Below are positions 8,191 through 53,232 of a DNA stretch of 53,232 nucleotides, one piece after another. The stretch spans positions 1-53,232 of the forward strand of contig CAIKOJ010000105.1 of assembly GCA_903829015.1 (NCBI GenBank). Reading direction: 5' to 3'. Numbering within the stretch: the first letter of the stretch is position 1; the number at the start of each line of letters is the position of its first letter. Made by a program: the position numbers and the translations under genes. This stretch comes from an uncultured Bacteroidota bacterium (lineage in GTDB: Bacteria > Bacteroidota > Bacteroidia > Chitinophagales > Chitinophagaceae). A model generated the notes under the pieces. That model searched no databases. It was not told the DNA's origin and saw nothing but the letters and a program-made list of their open reading frames with translations.

Positions 8191-8862
8191 TTATTTTTCA
8201 GGATTTTCCTTCTGGTGTTTCAGAACTTTGGCCTCGATATAAAATATGATCTCTTCCGCTATGTTTTTAGACTGATCTCCTACTCTTTCCAATTTACGGA
8301 TGATAGACATAATATAGAGTGCTTCAGGCAGCACATTTATATCTTCCCTGATACAATCGCTTATCTTGTCAATCGCATTGTTATTAATTACATCGAGCAC
8401 TTCGTCTCTCTTAAATATGCTTCGGGCCAGAATTGTATCTTCTTTTTCGAAGGCTATGCGCGTATCAGCAAGGATCTTTATCGAATCATCATACATTTTG
8501 ATGACATCGGTTTTTGTAAGGAGTGCATTATCGTAGGGTGTTGTAGATTCAATAATATACTTGGCTATGCCCTCGGCTATGTCGCCTATACGCTCCAGAT
8601 TATTGTTTATTTTAAGAACTGCGAGCAAAAACCTAAGGTCAATTGCTACCGGGCAATAAAGAGCAAAAATGTCTTCACAATCTCTATCTAGCTTTATTTC
8701 GAATGCATTGACTCTCTTCTCCTTAAGGACTATTTCCATTGCCAGATCCTTGTCGAAGTTGAGCAAGGCAGCACGCGACTTGATCAATTGCGATTCAACC
8801 AATGTCCACATGCTAACTACTTCTAGTTTGATGCGCTGAACCTCATTTTCTAATTGTGTCAT
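8191..8862 (-). CDS. phoU: PhoU phosphate-signalling protein
   Basis: A 223-residue all-helical protein with two PhoU repeats. Each carries the metal-site type motif: NNNLERIGDIAEGIAK near residue 85 and KLERVGDQSKNIAEEI near residue 190. PhoU links the Pst transporter to the PhoR-type sensor and limits phosphate uptake. It is the last gene of the pstSCAB-phoU operon, 42 nt after pstB, and is followed by an intrinsic terminator. Confidence 0.95.
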   Translation of the reverse strand: MTQLENEVQRIKLEVVSMWTLVESQLIKSRAALLNFDKDLAMEIVLKEKRVNAFEIKLDRDCEDIFALYCPVAIDLRFLLAVLKINNNLERIGDIAEGIAKYIIESTTPYDNALLTKTDVIKMYDDSIKILADTRIAFEKEDTILARSIFKRDEVLDVINNNAIDKISDCIREDINVLPEALYIMSIIRKLERVGDQSKNIAEEIIFYIEAKVLKHQKENPEK

Positions 8863-8904
8863 TTTTGATTTCTTATTATAAAGTAAGATAAGCGGAATTG
8901 CTGA

Positions 8905-9663
8905 TTAACTAAACCGACCTGTAATATAGTTCTGTGTGCGGATATCTGTTGGATTTGTGAACATTTGTTTGGTTTCGTCATACTCCACCAGCTCGCCCAT
9001 GTAGAAAAAAGCCGTCTTATCACTCACACGGGCAGCCTGCTGCATGTTGTGTGTAACAATGATGAGTGTGTAATTTTTCTTCAGCTCATGGAATAGTTCT
9101 TCAACAGTCGATGTTGATATCGGATCGAGTGCCGATGTGGGTTCATCAAAAAGCAATACCTCAGGTTCCATAGCTACCGCACGAGCTATACAAAGACGCT
9201 GCTGCTGTCCGCCTGAAAGAAATGAGCCTTTTTTTGTCAGTGAGTCTTTCACCTCGTTCCACAATGCAACACGCGTTAGTGAATGCTCCACTATTTTATC
9301 TTTTTCGGCTTTAGGCAATTTGATGCCATTCAGTTTATAACCGGCTATTACGTTATCGTAAATGCTGAGATTAGGAAAAGGATTAGGGCGCTGAAACACC
9401 ATACCGATCTTCAACCGCACAAATATGGGATGCATATCAAATACATCTTCGTTATTGAGCAGTATTTTACCTTTTGATGTAGCACCGGGTATGAGTTCGT
9501 GCATACGGTTAATGCCCCTCAGGAAGGTAGTTTTACCACAACCTGACGGTCCCATTACCGCAATTACATTATTTCTGGGAATGTCAATGTTGACATTCTT
9601 TACAACGTGATTGTCACCGAAATAAGCATTATAATCTACCGACTTTACAATTGTACCTTCCAT
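8905..9663 (-). CDS. pstB: Phosphate ABC transporter ATP-binding protein
   Basis: A 252-residue ABC ATPase. Walker A is GPSGCGKTT (residues 38-46), the signature is LSGGQQQRLCIARA, and Walker B is VLLFDEPTSALDP. The switch histidine is in LIIVTHNMQQAARVSD. It powers high-affinity phosphate import by PstSCA at the inner membrane. Its start overlaps the end of pstA by 19 nt, which indicates translational coupling. Confidence 0.97.
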   Translation of the reverse strand: MEGTIVKSVDYNAYFGDNHVVKNVNIDIPRNNVIAVMGPSGCGKTTFLRGINRMHELIPGATSKGKILLNNEDVFDMHPIFVRLKIGMVFQRPNPFPNLSIYDNVIAGYKLNGIKLPKAEKDKIVEHSLTRVALWNEVKDSLTKKGSFLSGGQQQRLCIARAVAMEPEVLLFDEPTSALDPISTSTVEELFHELKKNYTLIIVTHNMQQAARVSDKTAFFYMGELVEYDETKQMFTNPTDIRTQNYITGRFS

Positions 9664-10490
9664 TTTCTAGTCACAAGCTTTGTAAAAATATTCAACAACA
9701 ATACCCAAATAAGCAATATGCAAGACGCACCCCATGCCAGATCATGCCAATCGTTATACGGACTGGTAGCATAGTTAAAGATCAGCAGGGGCAAACTCTG
9801 CATTGGTTTCAGAATATTTGTAGATAAGTATGGATTACCAAATGCCGTAAACAACAACGGTGCAGTTTCGCCGCTGACCCTTGCAACCGCCAGCATCACG
9901 CCCGAAAGAATACCACTGAATCCGCAAGGGATGATCACTTTCAATATCACACGGTGAAAAGGCATCCCCAGAGCAAAGGCTGCTTCACGTAGTGTATCCG
10001 GGAGTAGCTTTAGTGTTTCTTCAGTAGAACTTACAATTGTAGGTAACATCATAATAGCCAGCGCAGCACTACCCGATAGAGCAGAAAACGCACCCAACGG
10101 TTTTACCAACCAGAAATAGGCTACAATTCCAATTACAATAGAAGGAACGCCCTGAAGTATGTCGATGCATAAACGGCTCCAATAAGCAAGCTTGCTTTTT
10201 CTGTTCTCACTTAAATAAATGCCGCATAATATACCCACAGGAATTGCAAAAGCCGAAGCCGTTAATACCAGCATTATGGTGCCTATCAAGGCATTAGCAA
10301 TTCCTCCACCGGTTTCACCCACAGGCTTTGGCAGATTGGTCAGAAAATTCCAGTTGATCTTGGTAATTCCCGCCTTCAGAATGTAAAAAAGTATGAACAT
10401 CAATGGCACAACACACGCAAAAGCAAGTACCGCCACAACTACCTGAAACACTCCGCTTTTCCCTATCCTATATTTGATATGTACATCCAT
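9645..10490 (-). CDS. pstA: Phosphate ABC transporter permease PstA
   Basis: A 281-residue inner-membrane permease with about six hydrophobic segments. The coupling loop that touches PstB is visible as LREAAFALGMPFHRVILKV near residue 187. GIVAYFWLVKPLG and SGETAPLLFTAFGNP are typical of PstA. It starts 5 nt after pstC and overlaps pstB by 19 nt. Confidence 0.95.
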   Translation of the reverse strand: MDVHIKYRIGKSGVFQVVVAVLAFACVVPLMFILFYILKAGITKINWNFLTNLPKPVGETGGGIANALIGTIMLVLTASAFAIPVGILCGIYLSENRKSKLAYWSRLCIDILQGVPSIVIGIVAYFWLVKPLGAFSALSGSAALAIMMLPTIVSSTEETLKLLPDTLREAAFALGMPFHRVILKVIIPCGFSGILSGVMLAVARVSGETAPLLFTAFGNPYLSTNILKPMQSLPLLIFNYATSPYNDWHDLAWGASCILLIWVLLLNIFTKLVTRKWKVQL

Positions 10491-10495
10491 CGGGC

Positions 10496-11488
10496 TTAGT
10501 CTTGTGTAAATTGTTTAATGATCCTTCTTCCAAGCATATTGATCACCACCGTTACCAGAAACAGTACCAGTCCTAGCTCTATCAGTGCCGACAAATAGAC
10601 CGGATGATCGGCCTCAGTAAATTCGTTGGCAATGATACTAGCCATGGTATTACCGGGTGAAAAAATATTCTTAGGTATAAGGCTGGTATTTCCTATAACC
10701 ATTGTTACCGCCATTGTTTCGCCAAGAGCTCTGCCCAATGACAAAAGTATACCGGCAAACAAACCCGATTTGGTGTAGGGTAGTATCACACTTCTGATCA
10801 CTTCCCATCTGGTAGCACCAAGTGAATATGCCGCTTCCTTAAGGTTAGATGGCACCATTTGTATCATTGATCTGGCAAGCGATGCCGCATAGGGAATGAT
10901 CATGATCGCCAGTATAAGCGACGAAGTAAAAATACCGAGACCTACGGGCGTAACACCAATTGCCGTTTCAAAACTCCTGACTATTGGTACCAGCACCGCC
11001 AGACCCCAAAAGCCATAAATTACCGACGGAACAGCGGCGATCAGCTCAACCGTGTTTTTCAAAAAGTTGGAAGCTAGACCGTTTGGAAAATACTCACCCA
11101 GGAAAATACCAACCGCAAAAGAAAAAGGAATAGATATGATCAATGCCAGGAATGACGTGAGCAAAGTACCCAAAATAAAAGGATAGGCACCAAAAATATC
11201 CTGCACCGGATCCCATACTTTACCCCATAGATAGCCAAGACCCGATGCCTTGATAGACAGGGTTGATTGCCATGCCAGGGTAACCATTATACCTAAAACA
11301 AGTACAATGGTACTCAGAGCAACGATCACCAATGTTTTCTTAAAAACATTTTCAGTACGTATCTGACGGTGCGAACGTTTAATGCGTTTTATCCCTTTCA
11401 CCGCATCTCGAAGTTTTGCAGAACTAATTACCCGCCCCAACATACTGTCGGGACGGGTAATTAAATCGTTATTAAGTGATGTATCCAT
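10496..11488 (-). CDS. pstC: Phosphate ABC transporter permease PstC
   Basis: A 330-residue permease, partner of PstA. A cytoplasmic N-terminal tail of about 50 residues, rich in K/R, precedes the first membrane helix (LVIVALSTIVLVLGIM). The coupling loop is LKEAAYSLGATRWEVIRSV, and GRALGETMAVTMVIGN is the conserved PstC signature. It follows pstS by 47 nt. Confidence 0.95.
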   Translation of the reverse strand: MDTSLNNDLITRPDSMLGRVISSAKLRDAVKGIKRIKRSHRQIRTENVFKKTLVIVALSTIVLVLGIMVTLAWQSTLSIKASGLGYLWGKVWDPVQDIFGAYPFILGTLLTSFLALIISIPFSFAVGIFLGEYFPNGLASNFLKNTVELIAAVPSVIYGFWGLAVLVPIVRSFETAIGVTPVGLGIFTSSLILAIMIIPYAASLARSMIQMVPSNLKEAAYSLGATRWEVIRSVILPYTKSGLFAGILLSLGRALGETMAVTMVIGNTSLIPKNIFSPGNTMASIIANEFTEADHPVYLSALIELGLVLFLVTVVINMLGRRIIKQFTQD

Positions 11489-11535
11489 ATTAGCAAATAG
11501 TTAAGAAACCGTAAAGGACCTTAACAACCCTGTGG

Positions 11536-12639
11536 TTATTGCAATACAGGTTTGCCGTCATATGTAACTGACTTCAGCTGTGCATCGCCAACTGCAACTG
11601 CAGCAGGAGAAAGTGGAGCATAGTTCAGTGCGGCACTGTACTGCTGACCATCGTGGATCATCCACTGAATCAGTTTCAACATTTTAGATACTTTATCAGC
11701 AGAGCGGTTGTCATATTTCTGCTCTTTATAAACCAGTATCCACGACAGACCAGATATTGGATAGCCATCAGGTGCATCAGTGTTGGTAAGTGATACTTTA
11801 GCATCAGCAGGGATAGTGATGTTTGCTGCAGCTGTTACACTTGCGATACTTGGGGTAATGAAATTACCAGCCTTGTTCTGCAATTTAGCGTAAGCCATGT
11901 TGCTCTGTATAGCATAAGCCAACTCAACATAACCAATTCCACCCGGAGTTTGTTTGATAGATCCTGCAACACCTTCGTTACCTTTTCCACCAAGACCAAC
12001 AGGCCAGTTAACAGAAGAGCCTTTGCCAACTTTGCTTTCCCAATCCTTGCTTACTTTAGTAAGGTAGGTAGTGAAGATGTTGGTAGTTCCGCTGCCATCC
12101 GAACGGTGAGCTACCTGAATGTCAGTTGCAGGCAATTTAACACCAGGGTTAATTGTAGCGATAGCTTTGTCATTCCACTTTTTGATGTCGCCCAGGAAGA
12201 TCTTGGCAACTACATCTGGAGTGAGTTTCAAAGTATCCTTCAGGTCAGGCAGGTTGTAGCTGATCACAACTGCGCCGGCTGTAGCCGGGATATGAATCAC
12301 TGGTGCAGATAAAGCTGAATCCTGCTTGCCGTTCATTGGGGCATCAGATGCACCAAAGTCTACAGTTTTAGCAGTTAACTGCTGAATACCACCGCCAGAT
12401 CCGATTGACTGATAGTTAACTTTCAAGCCAGTTGTCTTGTTATACTCTGAAAACATTTTTGAATATAACGGATTAGGAAAAGTAGCACCGGCACCTAAAA
12501 TAGTATTGTCTTCGCCGCCTTTGTTTGCTGAGCTGTCTGCACCAGAGCCATTACCTGCGTCGCCGCAGCTACTCATCGTCATACCGGCTGTTATTGCTAA
12601 CGCTACTACCGCCAGTGCTAATCCTTTCATTGATTTCAT
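11536..12639 (-). CDS. pstS: Phosphate-binding lipoprotein PstS
   Basis: A 367-residue periplasmic binding protein anchored as a lipoprotein; the lipobox is MSSC with the acylated Cys at about residue 25. Phosphate-contacting loops are visible: GAGATFPNPLY, QSIGSGGGIQQL, DFGASDAPM and AHRSDGSGTTNIFT. It delivers phosphate to PstCAB and is the first gene of the operon. The upstream gap holds a possible 41-codon ORF. I found no clear TAnnTTTG box directly before it. Confidence 0.96.
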   Translation of the reverse strand: MKSMKGLALAVVALAITAGMTMSSCGDAGNGSGADSSANKGGEDNTILGAGATFPNPLYSKMFSEYNKTTGLKVNYQSIGSGGGIQQLTAKTVDFGASDAPMNGKQDSALSAPVIHIPATAGAVVISYNLPDLKDTLKLTPDVVAKIFLGDIKKWNDKAIATINPGVKLPATDIQVAHRSDGSGTTNIFTTYLTKVSKDWESKVGKGSSVNWPVGLGGKGNEGVAGSIKQTPGGIGYVELAYAIQSNMAYAKLQNKAGNFITPSIASVTAAANITIPADAKVSLTNTDAPDGYPISGLSWILVYKEQKYDNRSADKVSKMLKLIQWMIHDGQQYSAALNYAPLSPAAVAVGDAQLKSVTYDGKPVLQ

Positions 12640-50591: not shown

Positions 50592-51276
50592 TCTTTTAAA
50601 CAAATCTCAATTCTTATTTCTCTTTCTTGATCAATCGGCCGGTACCTTTACCTGCCTGATTTTCTGCAGTAACCATGTATACACCTGGTACCAGAGAAGA
50701 GATATCCATACTTACTGATTCGCCACCTACAATGTGTATTGGTTTTTCAGCAACTTTCTGGCCTGTTACATTGTAGATAGATAATGTTGCAGAACCTTCG
50801 AAATTAGGAAGTACAACGTTGATCATATCTGTAGCAGGGTTAGGGTTAATGTTAACTGCTGAAGGTTTGTTAGTCCTCAGGTTCACCATTTTAGGGCTAG
50901 AATGTGCAATACGCTCAGCGGCTTTATGCTGAATAGTGTGTGTCAGCTTTGTGTTAGTCCACTCACTACCTGTATCAACTACCTCGAACTGTACAGCAGA
51001 AAGAACACTGTCTGTAAGGCTTGTAGAAAGCGCGTCACCAGGAACAGCATAGAAGCCATATGGAGGATCGGCAGTTACGGATACGCTCCAGTCACCTTCT
51101 ACTGATTCATAAACAATCGGCATAAGTGCAGTTGTATCTTCAAATTCAAGCGTAGCTGGTGATACCATTACCATCAGAGAGCCGTGCTGCAATTGTGTAT
51201 TACCTTCAACACATTTTCCTTTTGCATCTTTAAGTATAGAATGGAATTTAACGATCGTGTTGTTGCAAGAATTGAT

Positions 51277-51312
51277 GTCATCTTCATCATCATCATCATC
51301 GTCGTCGCTATC
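51277..51312 (-). repeat. Trinucleotide (GAT/GAC) repeat coding an Asp-rich tract
   Basis: Twelve codons read D-S-seven D-E-D-D on the minus strand, from a near-perfect GAT microsatellite. The tract sits in the surface protein between the PKD-like region and the C-terminal domains, and can expand or shrink by slippage. Confidence 0.8.
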
Positions 51313-51816
51313 GTGGTTACCTGCTTTTGTTCCGTTATAGATCGTTACCGACCCTCCGCTGTATGCAGAAGAAGAAACTTCAGATTTACCAACGATCAGG
51401 TACGAACCATTAGCTGGCACAGTAATTACGTATTGGTAAGCAGGACCGCCACCAAGTGTTACTGTTTTTGGGCTGCTTACAACTGCACTAGAAACAATAC
51501 CGGTTGTGCTGTTCCAGATTGAAGCGTAGTGACTCTGATTGCGGTCACGTTTGCCTGCATTCGAGTTACCTCTGTTAAACACTTTAATATCAGAAGCCAA
51601 TGCAGATTTTGTGATAGCAGGGTGATTACCAGAACCTGTAACATATATGTTAGAGTACAACGTAACCTGTGAACTTGGTGTTACTGTTACTGCCATTGCA
51701 CTGGTGCTGCTGCAACCTGTTGAATTGGTAGTTGTTAAAGTAACTGTGTAAACACCTGCACAGCAAGGAGTTGAGATGTTCACACTTGAACCGGTAGTTG
51801 AACCAGAAATTGCTGC

Positions 51817-52089
51817 ACTACCGCAATGGGTGTGACCGCAATGGTGGTAGCTGTGGTGGTGACACGCAGAATTACAAGAAGTTCCGTAATGGTCGCAATT
51901 TGCATTACATGAGTGACCTGAACCGTGATGGCATTTGCTGCCGCAATGGTGGTCGCCGTAGTGCTGGTTAGAGCAGCTGTGGCTGCTATGATGATGGCAT
52001 GAAGAAGTACATGCCTGACCATTGTGGTCGCATCCGCTTCCGCAGCTGTGGCTGCCATGATGGTGACAATGAGCGTCGCATACGTGGTT
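51817..52089 (-). repeat. Cys/His-rich coding repeats (91 codons)
   Basis: Four imperfect units of about 16-25 residues follow the theme C-HHH-x-SHSC-x3-C-DH-x-G-x2-C. By count the segment has 15 Cys and 25 His in 91 residues. It interrupts a PKD-like domain between SSYSWAISGG and SAAISGSTTGSSVN, whose flanks would join naturally. Confidence 0.8.
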
Positions 52090-53091
52090 ACCGCCTGAAA
52101 TAGCCCATGAGTAGCTACTCATTCCTGAAGGTCCGCTGTAAGTGTATGTTAATCCACCCAATACAGTATTGCTACCGGTAATCGTGCTTGAAGCGCCTGT
52201 GTTCTGAGTTACTGTTGCAGCAACTGTTTTAGTACAGCTGTTAGCGTCTGTAACAGTTACGCTGTAGGTACCAGCAGTAACACCTGTTTTAGTAGCACCG
52301 CTACCTGAAGGGGTCCATGCATAGCTATAAGAACCAGTACCACCTGATACTGAAGTCGAAATGCTACCGTTGTTAGTGCTAGTGCAGCTAACGTTTGTTA
52401 CAGTAGTAGTTACAGCGATAGCTGTTGGCTCACTGATTGTTGCAGAACCTGCTTTTGTACAACTGTTACCATCTGTTACGGTTACTGTATAGGTTCCTGG
52501 TGCTTTGCCTGTAGGATTTGCTGATGTTCCCCCGCCTGGTGCCCACGAATATGAATAAGAACCTGTACCGCCAGTTACTGAAGATGAGATACTACCGTTG
52601 CTGTTGTTACCTCCGTTTGCGGAGTTACAAGAAACATTGGTTGGTGTAAGGCTCACGCTGATAGCCGATGGCTGTGTAACAGAAGGAGTTACTGTATTTT
52701 TACCACCAATAGCATCAACTACTGTATAGCTGTATGATCCTGCGCTAAGGCTTGAGTAAGTGCCGGTACCAGTAAGTGTGCCTGTGCCGCCAGTAGCTGA
52801 AATGGTGATCGATCCATTGTTACCGCCATTACAAGAAACGTTATTTACAGAGTAAGTAACAGCAGGTGCTGCATTTACTGTAACGTTAACAGTTGCACTT
52901 GAAGTACTTGTACCATTTGTAGCCTGTATAACAAACTGGTCGAAACCTGTATAACCCGGTGTTGGAGTATAAGTAACACCTGATGGAGTAACAGTACCGC
53001 CGTTTGAACTTAAAGTACCAGGAAAGCCGGCCAAAGAACCATGAGAACAATTTGTGCCAATAGACCAGGTAATTGAGTTACCTGTAGTACC

Positions 53092-53232
53092 TGTAAATCG
53101 TCAGCATAAAGTGGGCTGAAAAGAACATAACTTTAGATAGTGTTTCCATTGTTAACCAACAAAAAATGTAAACATGGAATCAAAGAAAAAGCAGTCCACA
53201 GAAAACTTCATCAAGGATATCCGCAGAAAGAC
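53092..53232 (+). mobile_element. Left end of an IS3-like insertion sequence
   Basis: From TGTAAATCG at 53092 the sequence no longer fits the surface-protein frame. IS3-family ends begin with TG. A transposase-like ORF starts at 53174. The right end and any target duplication lie outside the window, so the boundary is inferred from where the repeat-protein coding pattern stops. Confidence 0.55.
53174..53232 (+). CDS. Transposase OrfA start (IS3-like), partial
   Basis: ATG at 53174 opens a frame MESKKKQSTENFIKDIRRK that runs off the window. A lysine-rich start followed by IRRKT is typical of OrfA of IS3-family elements in Bacteroidota, just before the DNA-binding HTH. Only 19 codons are visible, so the family call is tentative. 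Confidence 0.5.
   Translation, partial: MESKKKQSTENFIKDIRRK

Follow-up and report, generated by a model that had tools for sequence, protein, structure and literature searches.

A candidate metal-binding Cys/His module in a PKD-like domain of a type IX secretion surface protein

The window (the whole stretch of DNA that was analysed, 53,232 nucleotides, corresponding to the complete contig C105 of genome G000) encodes on its minus strand, at positions 51820-52095, a block of 92 residues with 15 Cys and 25 His (GG[N/D]HVC...HTHCG). The block is probably a real metal-binding module, because its spacing has been kept exactly in five proteins while the residues in between have drifted; the binding itself is suggested by this conservation. 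Judged from sequence, the chances are somewhat better than even that the module is a lineage-specific extracellular metal-binding insert, with zinc as the likely metal, carried by a SprB-repeat surface adhesin of the type IX secretion system (T9SS). The relevant features are the following.

50614-53097, minus strand: open frame of the surface protein, 828 codons including the stop (frame reading; the contig ends at 53232)
52306-52410, minus strand: best of three SprB repeats (Pfam PF13573, 47.4 bits in total for the protein, cut-off 28)
51667-52200, minus strand: PKD-like domain of 178 residues that hosts the module (AlphaFold2 sandwich of the flanks, Foldseek, junction alignments)
51820-52095, minus strand: Cys/His module, 92 residues, 15 Cys and 25 His (sequence, five-copy alignment, repeat analysis)
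51958-52092, minus strand: repeat unit 1, 45 residues, GxHxCx3CHHx3HxCx3CDHx4Cx3CHHx3HxCx3H (offset-45 comparison)
51823-51957, minus strand: repeat unit 2, 45 residues, same spacing as unit 1, with an extra invariant Cys at its end (offset-45 comparison)
51277-51312, minus strand: Asp-rich stretch after the following region, its length varying between copies (alignment)
50635-50850, minus strand: T9SS type A C-terminal sorting domain (PF18962 and TIGR04183, both over cut-off)

Composition and repeat structure of the module

The initial annotation had described a Cys/His-rich segment at 51817-52089, which is the same stretch to within two codons. Its estimate of about 15 Cys and 25 His proved to be the exact count on the minus strand, and the length is 92 residues rather than 91. 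In the window's copy the module runs from GGNHVC to HTHCG. When all 10802 segments of 92 residues from open frames of 200 codons or more in the contig were compared, its 40 Cys plus His residues were the maximum; once segments containing any of four 9-residue pieces of the module were set aside, the highest count was 13. An alternative minus-strand frame at 51780-52058, also of 92 residues, was rejected because the conservation tracks the Cys/His frame. The G+C content of the module is 53.6%, against 42.9% for the contig, part of which may be explained by the codons for Cys and His.

The module is built as a tandem repeat of two 45-residue units. In each of the five known copies every one of the seven Cys in the first unit has a counterpart 45 residues further on, and nine His are in register between the units as well. 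When the window's module was compared with itself at offset 45, 24 of 47 residues were identical, and a best offset as good as this was reached in 21 of 20000 composition-preserving shuffles. The consensus of the 45-residue unit (GxHxCx3CHHx3HxCx3CDHx4Cx3CHHx3HxCx3H) holds the motif C-x3-C-H-H-x3-H-x-C twice, and the motif is found four times in each of the five copies; shuffles of the window's module contained it 0.01 times on average and once at most, with four reached in none of 5000. The pattern H-x-C-x3-C-x-H occurs 4, 5, 4, 4 and 4 times in the respective copies. Invariant C-x3-[C/H] pairs start at eight places, 7-12 residues apart and two per half-repeat. The repetition noted in the initial annotation thus stands, and the four imperfect repeats proposed there are better described as two 45-residue units of two half-repeats each.

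Conservation across five copies

The module was found in three of 60 related genomes, namely in the source genome G000 (contigs C105 and C151), in G032 (C106 and C109) and in G026 (C67), and a search of the whole genus returned the same three genomes out of 35. The segment that the initial annotation had pointed out therefore has homologues with conserved Cys/His spacing, four copies in addition to that of the window. All five are exactly 92 residues long and align without a gap, at 60-87% identity to the window's copy; one of them has a sixteenth Cys at its last residue. All 15 Cys columns and 21 of the 25 His columns of the window's module are invariant, so that 36 of its 40 Cys/His columns are kept, compared with 14 of the other 52 (Fisher p = 8e-10; the copies are few, related and not independent, since they belong to a single genus and to three genomes within it). 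The columns beyond the module in this 534-column alignment served as a control: there 8 of the 14 Cys/His columns are invariant, and 193 of the 422 others. Cys and His are better kept inside the module than outside (p = 0.013), and the other residues are worse kept (p = 0.011).

The codons show the same two classes of residues. Over ten pairs of copies the proportion of non-synonymous differences was 0-0.06 for Cys/His codons and 0.11-0.44 for the other codons of the module, and synonymous differences in the module amounted to at least 0.85 per site in a Nei-Gojobori count, which overcounts at two-fold sites. Taken as a whole, the module is conserved no better than the sequence around it: the two closest pairs gave non-synonymous values of 0.063 and 0.090, versus 0.055 and 0.024 for the C-terminal region. 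By these comparisons the Cys and His of the module are judged to be under selection.

The window's copy and the copy on C106 of G032 are syntenic, all four flanking genes tested being present there at 86-97% identity. The loci on C151 of G000 and C109 of G032 share the single flanking gene tested (91% identity), and none of the five flanking genes tested is present in the available 19-kb stretch of G026. Inspection by eye revealed no metal-related gene beside the module gene. Elsewhere in the window, at 8191-12639, lies what appears by eye to be a phosphate transport cluster of PstS, PstC, PstA, PstB and PhoU type in one orientation.

The host protein and its export

The sorting tail of the protein scores 42.6 bits with PF18962 (cut-off 27) and 38.9 bits with TIGR04183 (cut-off 23), and SprA is encoded in the same genome (TIGR04189, 2436 bits, contig C7). 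Both observations support the earlier assignment to the T9SS surface proteins. The PF18962 tail is found in the other four module proteins too, and thus in all five, and SprB repeats are found in four of them. More specifically, the protein on C151 of G000 (1838 residues) has ten SprB stretches together with Ig_7 and HYR, and the G032 proteins have seven (C109) and two (C106) such stretches. The G026 protein (2132 residues) has no SprB match and contains NHL, HYR and Ig-like domains.

As regards an N-terminal signal peptide, the two long proteins, those of G026 and of C151, begin by eye with a basic and hydrophobic stretch; the gene in the window extends to the edge of the contig. There the terminal 141 bases (53092-53232) do not align to the syntenic G032 locus, although the next 1354 columns do, at 79.5% identity. 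The 5' end of the window's gene is missing, decayed or misassembled. Upstream of the module both G032 copies carry an in-frame stop (L007:10773-10775 and L010:8379-8381) at places where the G000 counterparts are open, and these stops represent either recent decay in that lineage or MAG errors.

The part of the protein that follows the PKD-like domain (51277-51666) has no Pfam match, turned up in no proteins other than the five with the module, and ends in the Asp-rich tract of variable length. A search with the 401 residues after the module, in which nine candidates per genome were scored, gave matches in 17 of 197 genomes; the five module proteins were the only ones matched over the whole length. 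The remaining matches cover the sorting end at the C-terminus, and one of them extends as far back as residue 241 of the 401. An orthologue of the module protein without the insert was not found by this search of 197 genomes, in which a weaker relative may have escaped because nine candidates were scored in each.

Insertion into a PKD-like domain

The initial annotation had proposed that the segment splits a PKD-like fold and had suggested structure prediction as a check. In an AlphaFold2 prediction of a 178-residue construct that includes the insert, based on five sequences, the flanks fold into one beta-sandwich with ten-residue block means of 72-94. Residues 39-126 are below pLDDT 50, and the module itself is at about 30 and has no secondary structure, so that no site geometry is visible. 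This was the best of five models, whose mean pLDDT values were 58.9, 56.5, 47.2, 45.6 and 34.2. The model of the 528-residue C-terminal region was poor (mean pLDDT 48.7) and gave the module only two single-residue bridges. The low confidence is no evidence of disorder, since the alignment is shallow and metals are absent from the model.

Foldseek matched the flank sandwich to the PKD domain of Clostridium ColG with probability 1.00, a TM-score by target of 0.69-0.75 and E values of 0.02-0.04; no match reached E <=0.001, and the rmsd was above 7 Å when the insert region was included in the alignment. The sandwiches of titin Ig and CopC are listed as well. In addition, the joined flanks matched nine places in five other genomes (G043, G055, G056 and G057 from other genera and G027 from the same genus) at 35-45% identity, and all nine span the junction without an insert; the other nine matches fall on the flanks in the five module proteins themselves. 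On realignment the nine insert-free places were reduced to six different domains, since adjacent places shared a best-matching domain. Six of the nine places were scanned with Pfam: three pass the cut-off for PKD_6, one more passes PKD_4 and PKD, and two pass none. For the window's protein no Pfam PKD model is over its cut-off (PF18911 reaches 14.4 of 27 bits and PF22352 11.4 of 27), and we therefore call the domain PKD-like. Taken together, the predicted fold, the Foldseek match and the insert-free PKD-type domains that align across the junction support a split PKD-like fold, with the module inserted at the turn after the W-x-x-x-G-G strand.

Distribution of the module

The module has no significant match in Pfam, NCBIfam or the PDB sequences, in line with the initial annotation, to whose author no standard domain with this pattern was familiar. 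The sole Pfam family listed for it, Metallothio_6 (PF05522), appeared for two of the five members with a best E of 2.7, which is noise. An NF-X1 finger was considered and rejected: PF01422 did not match the module even with E values of up to 10 allowed, and gave two weak places elsewhere in the genome. Searches with a narrow peptide pattern matched 75 stretches in genome contigs, three of which are relatives, all of them the known G026 and G032 copies, and 91 stretches in viral contigs without any relative. Plasmids and phages yielded no module match.

A profile of the module was run against overlapping genome samples, with at most 13 candidates scored per genome for the family, phylum and class and at most 18 for the order. 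It matched one of 394 genomes in the family sample, which is the source genome, two of 395 in the phylum sample (the source genome and one match at E 0.003) and three of 395 in the class sample (the source genome and two matches at E 0.004 and 0.0095). The three additional matches each contain an internal stop and were taken as chance. With a profile of the single unit, 20 of 396 genomes in the order sample gave a match at E <=0.1, the source genome at <=7.5e-17. Each of the 19 others had one short match (E 0.0019 to 0.0975), some of them without an internal stop, and these were taken as chance without closer study. Among the genomes sampled the module is thus found in three genomes of one genus, with no credible further copy, and the best reading is that it is lineage-specific. 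Literature searches returned no paper that combines type IX secretion with Cys/His-rich metal binding, none that joins multiheme cytochromes and type IX secretion, and, among the titles listed, none on a module of this kind.

Proposed function and alternative readings

According to the mechanism that we propose, the SprB-repeat protein would leave the cell via type IX secretion. In the PKD-like domain after the SprB repeats, the turn behind the W-x-x-x-G-G strand would be replaced by a loop of 92 residues, consisting of two 45-residue repeats with seven Cys and nine His each at fixed positions. These residues would hold a number of metal ions, Zn(II) being the most probable, in tetrahedral Cys/His sites and could thereby give a compact fold to a loop that otherwise has no core. 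The outcome would be a metal-crosslinked knob held out from the stalk, with a putative role in adhesion or stabilisation. With 36 invariant residues as potential ligands, as many as nine tetrahedral sites could be accommodated. We consider metal the best explanation for the combination of invariant Cys and His, short fixed spacings, an extracellular location and a strand-free insert, and the conservation points to zinc as the most likely ion. What speaks against metal is that the periplasm, which the protein crosses, may oxidise the Cys, that none of the known metal-binding families matches significantly, that the predicted structure shows no site geometry, that the module overall is no better conserved than its neighbourhood in copies that are few and related, and that by eye no metal-related gene adjoins it. 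A more far-reaching reading, to which we assign a low though appreciable likelihood, is that of a new fold held only by metal (or haem), in which eight turns of 10-12 residues, each with an invariant C-x3-[C/H] pair and a neighbouring His, would form a metal-stapled solenoid growing out of the PKD loop, exported by T9SS as the tip of an adhesin that contacts metal or mineral. The division into eight consecutive turns is our own and is weaker than the 45-residue repeat.

It seems unlikely that the insert is instead structural or ligand-binding and stabilised by disulphides, with the Cys pairing outside the cell and the His serving a ligand or a pH-sensitive surface. The export tail and the presence of SprA would be in line with it, as would three more invariant Cys of the PKD-like domain (C146, C147 and C163 in alignment A3) and the C-x3-[C/H] spacing, which is the same at eight invariant places of a two-fold repeat and could suit stacked disulphides. 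However, such an insert has no need for 21 invariant His, eight of which form four invariant H-H pairs directly after a Cys, and the number of invariant Cys in the module (15) is odd. Improbable, too, is a sink resembling metallothionein or the tail of SlyD, a flexible segment without a fixed fold that would capture Zn, Cu, Ni or Cd at the surface. The Cys/His-rich composition, the low-confidence and strand-free AlphaFold2 model of the module and the Asp-rich stretch nearby all agree with a sink, but flexibility does not require exact spacing, and the five copies are free of indels and keep their 15 Cys at identical positions.

A tetrahaem c module, in which the four invariant C-x3-C-H motifs would carry covalent haem in a surface electron-transfer protein, is worth considering because CX3CH is known as an atypical haem motif and because cytochrome c assembly proteins are encoded in the genome (PF01578, two places over cut-off). 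PMC6295460 names CX3CH as such a motif for some homologues of CymA and for those of ImcH, and the motif is present four times in each of the five copies. In ImcH, however, it is according to the same paper a single atypical motif accompanied by several CX2CH, whereas the canonical CX2CH is absent from all five copies of the module. Moreover, seven further invariant Cys of the module would stay unused, no cytochrome family in Pfam or NCBIfam matches the protein, and PF01578 does not discriminate since it is widespread, being over cut-off in 8 of 14 control genomes. We regard haem binding as very improbable.

If the module does bind metal, it would represent a small extracellular repeat for metal binding that has not been described before and that has settled in a loop of a commonplace PKD domain, and it would show how T9SS adhesins can acquire metal-dependent tips. 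The five members, with their length and spacing, define a family for which a profile can be built for wider searching; because the spacing is conserved, direct biochemical testing is straightforward.

Comparison with known systems

The module resembles the atypical CX3CH haem c motifs in having four CX3CH per copy, and differs from them by the absence of CX2CH, the seven extra invariant Cys and the lack of a cytochrome family match. With metallothioneins and segments of the SlyD/HypB type it shares the Cys/His-rich composition, whereas its exact spacing and length are conserved and no family match is significant. The core of the NF-X1 pattern (PF01422), H-x-C-x3-C-H-x4-H-x-C, occurs twice in the window's module, but the full pattern is missing in four of the five copies. 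NF-X1 fingers are eukaryotic and nuclear.

The host domain is unlike the PKD domains of Clostridium histolyticum ColG (2y72, 4jrw) in its 92-residue insert after the W-x-x-x-G-G strand and, for the window's protein, in scores below the Pfam PKD cut-offs. It is like them in that the flanks are predicted to fold as a PKD-like sandwich (Foldseek probability 1.00), and four of the six insert-free relatives that were scanned are over the cut-offs of PKD_6 or of PKD_4/PKD. Compared with T9SS type A cargo and SprB-repeat proteins, finally, the module proteins stand apart by a Cys/His module that Pfam and NCBIfam models leave unmatched, whereas they agree in the PF18962 tail (5/5), in the SprB repeats (4/5) and, for the G026 copy, in domains of NHL, HYR and Ig type.
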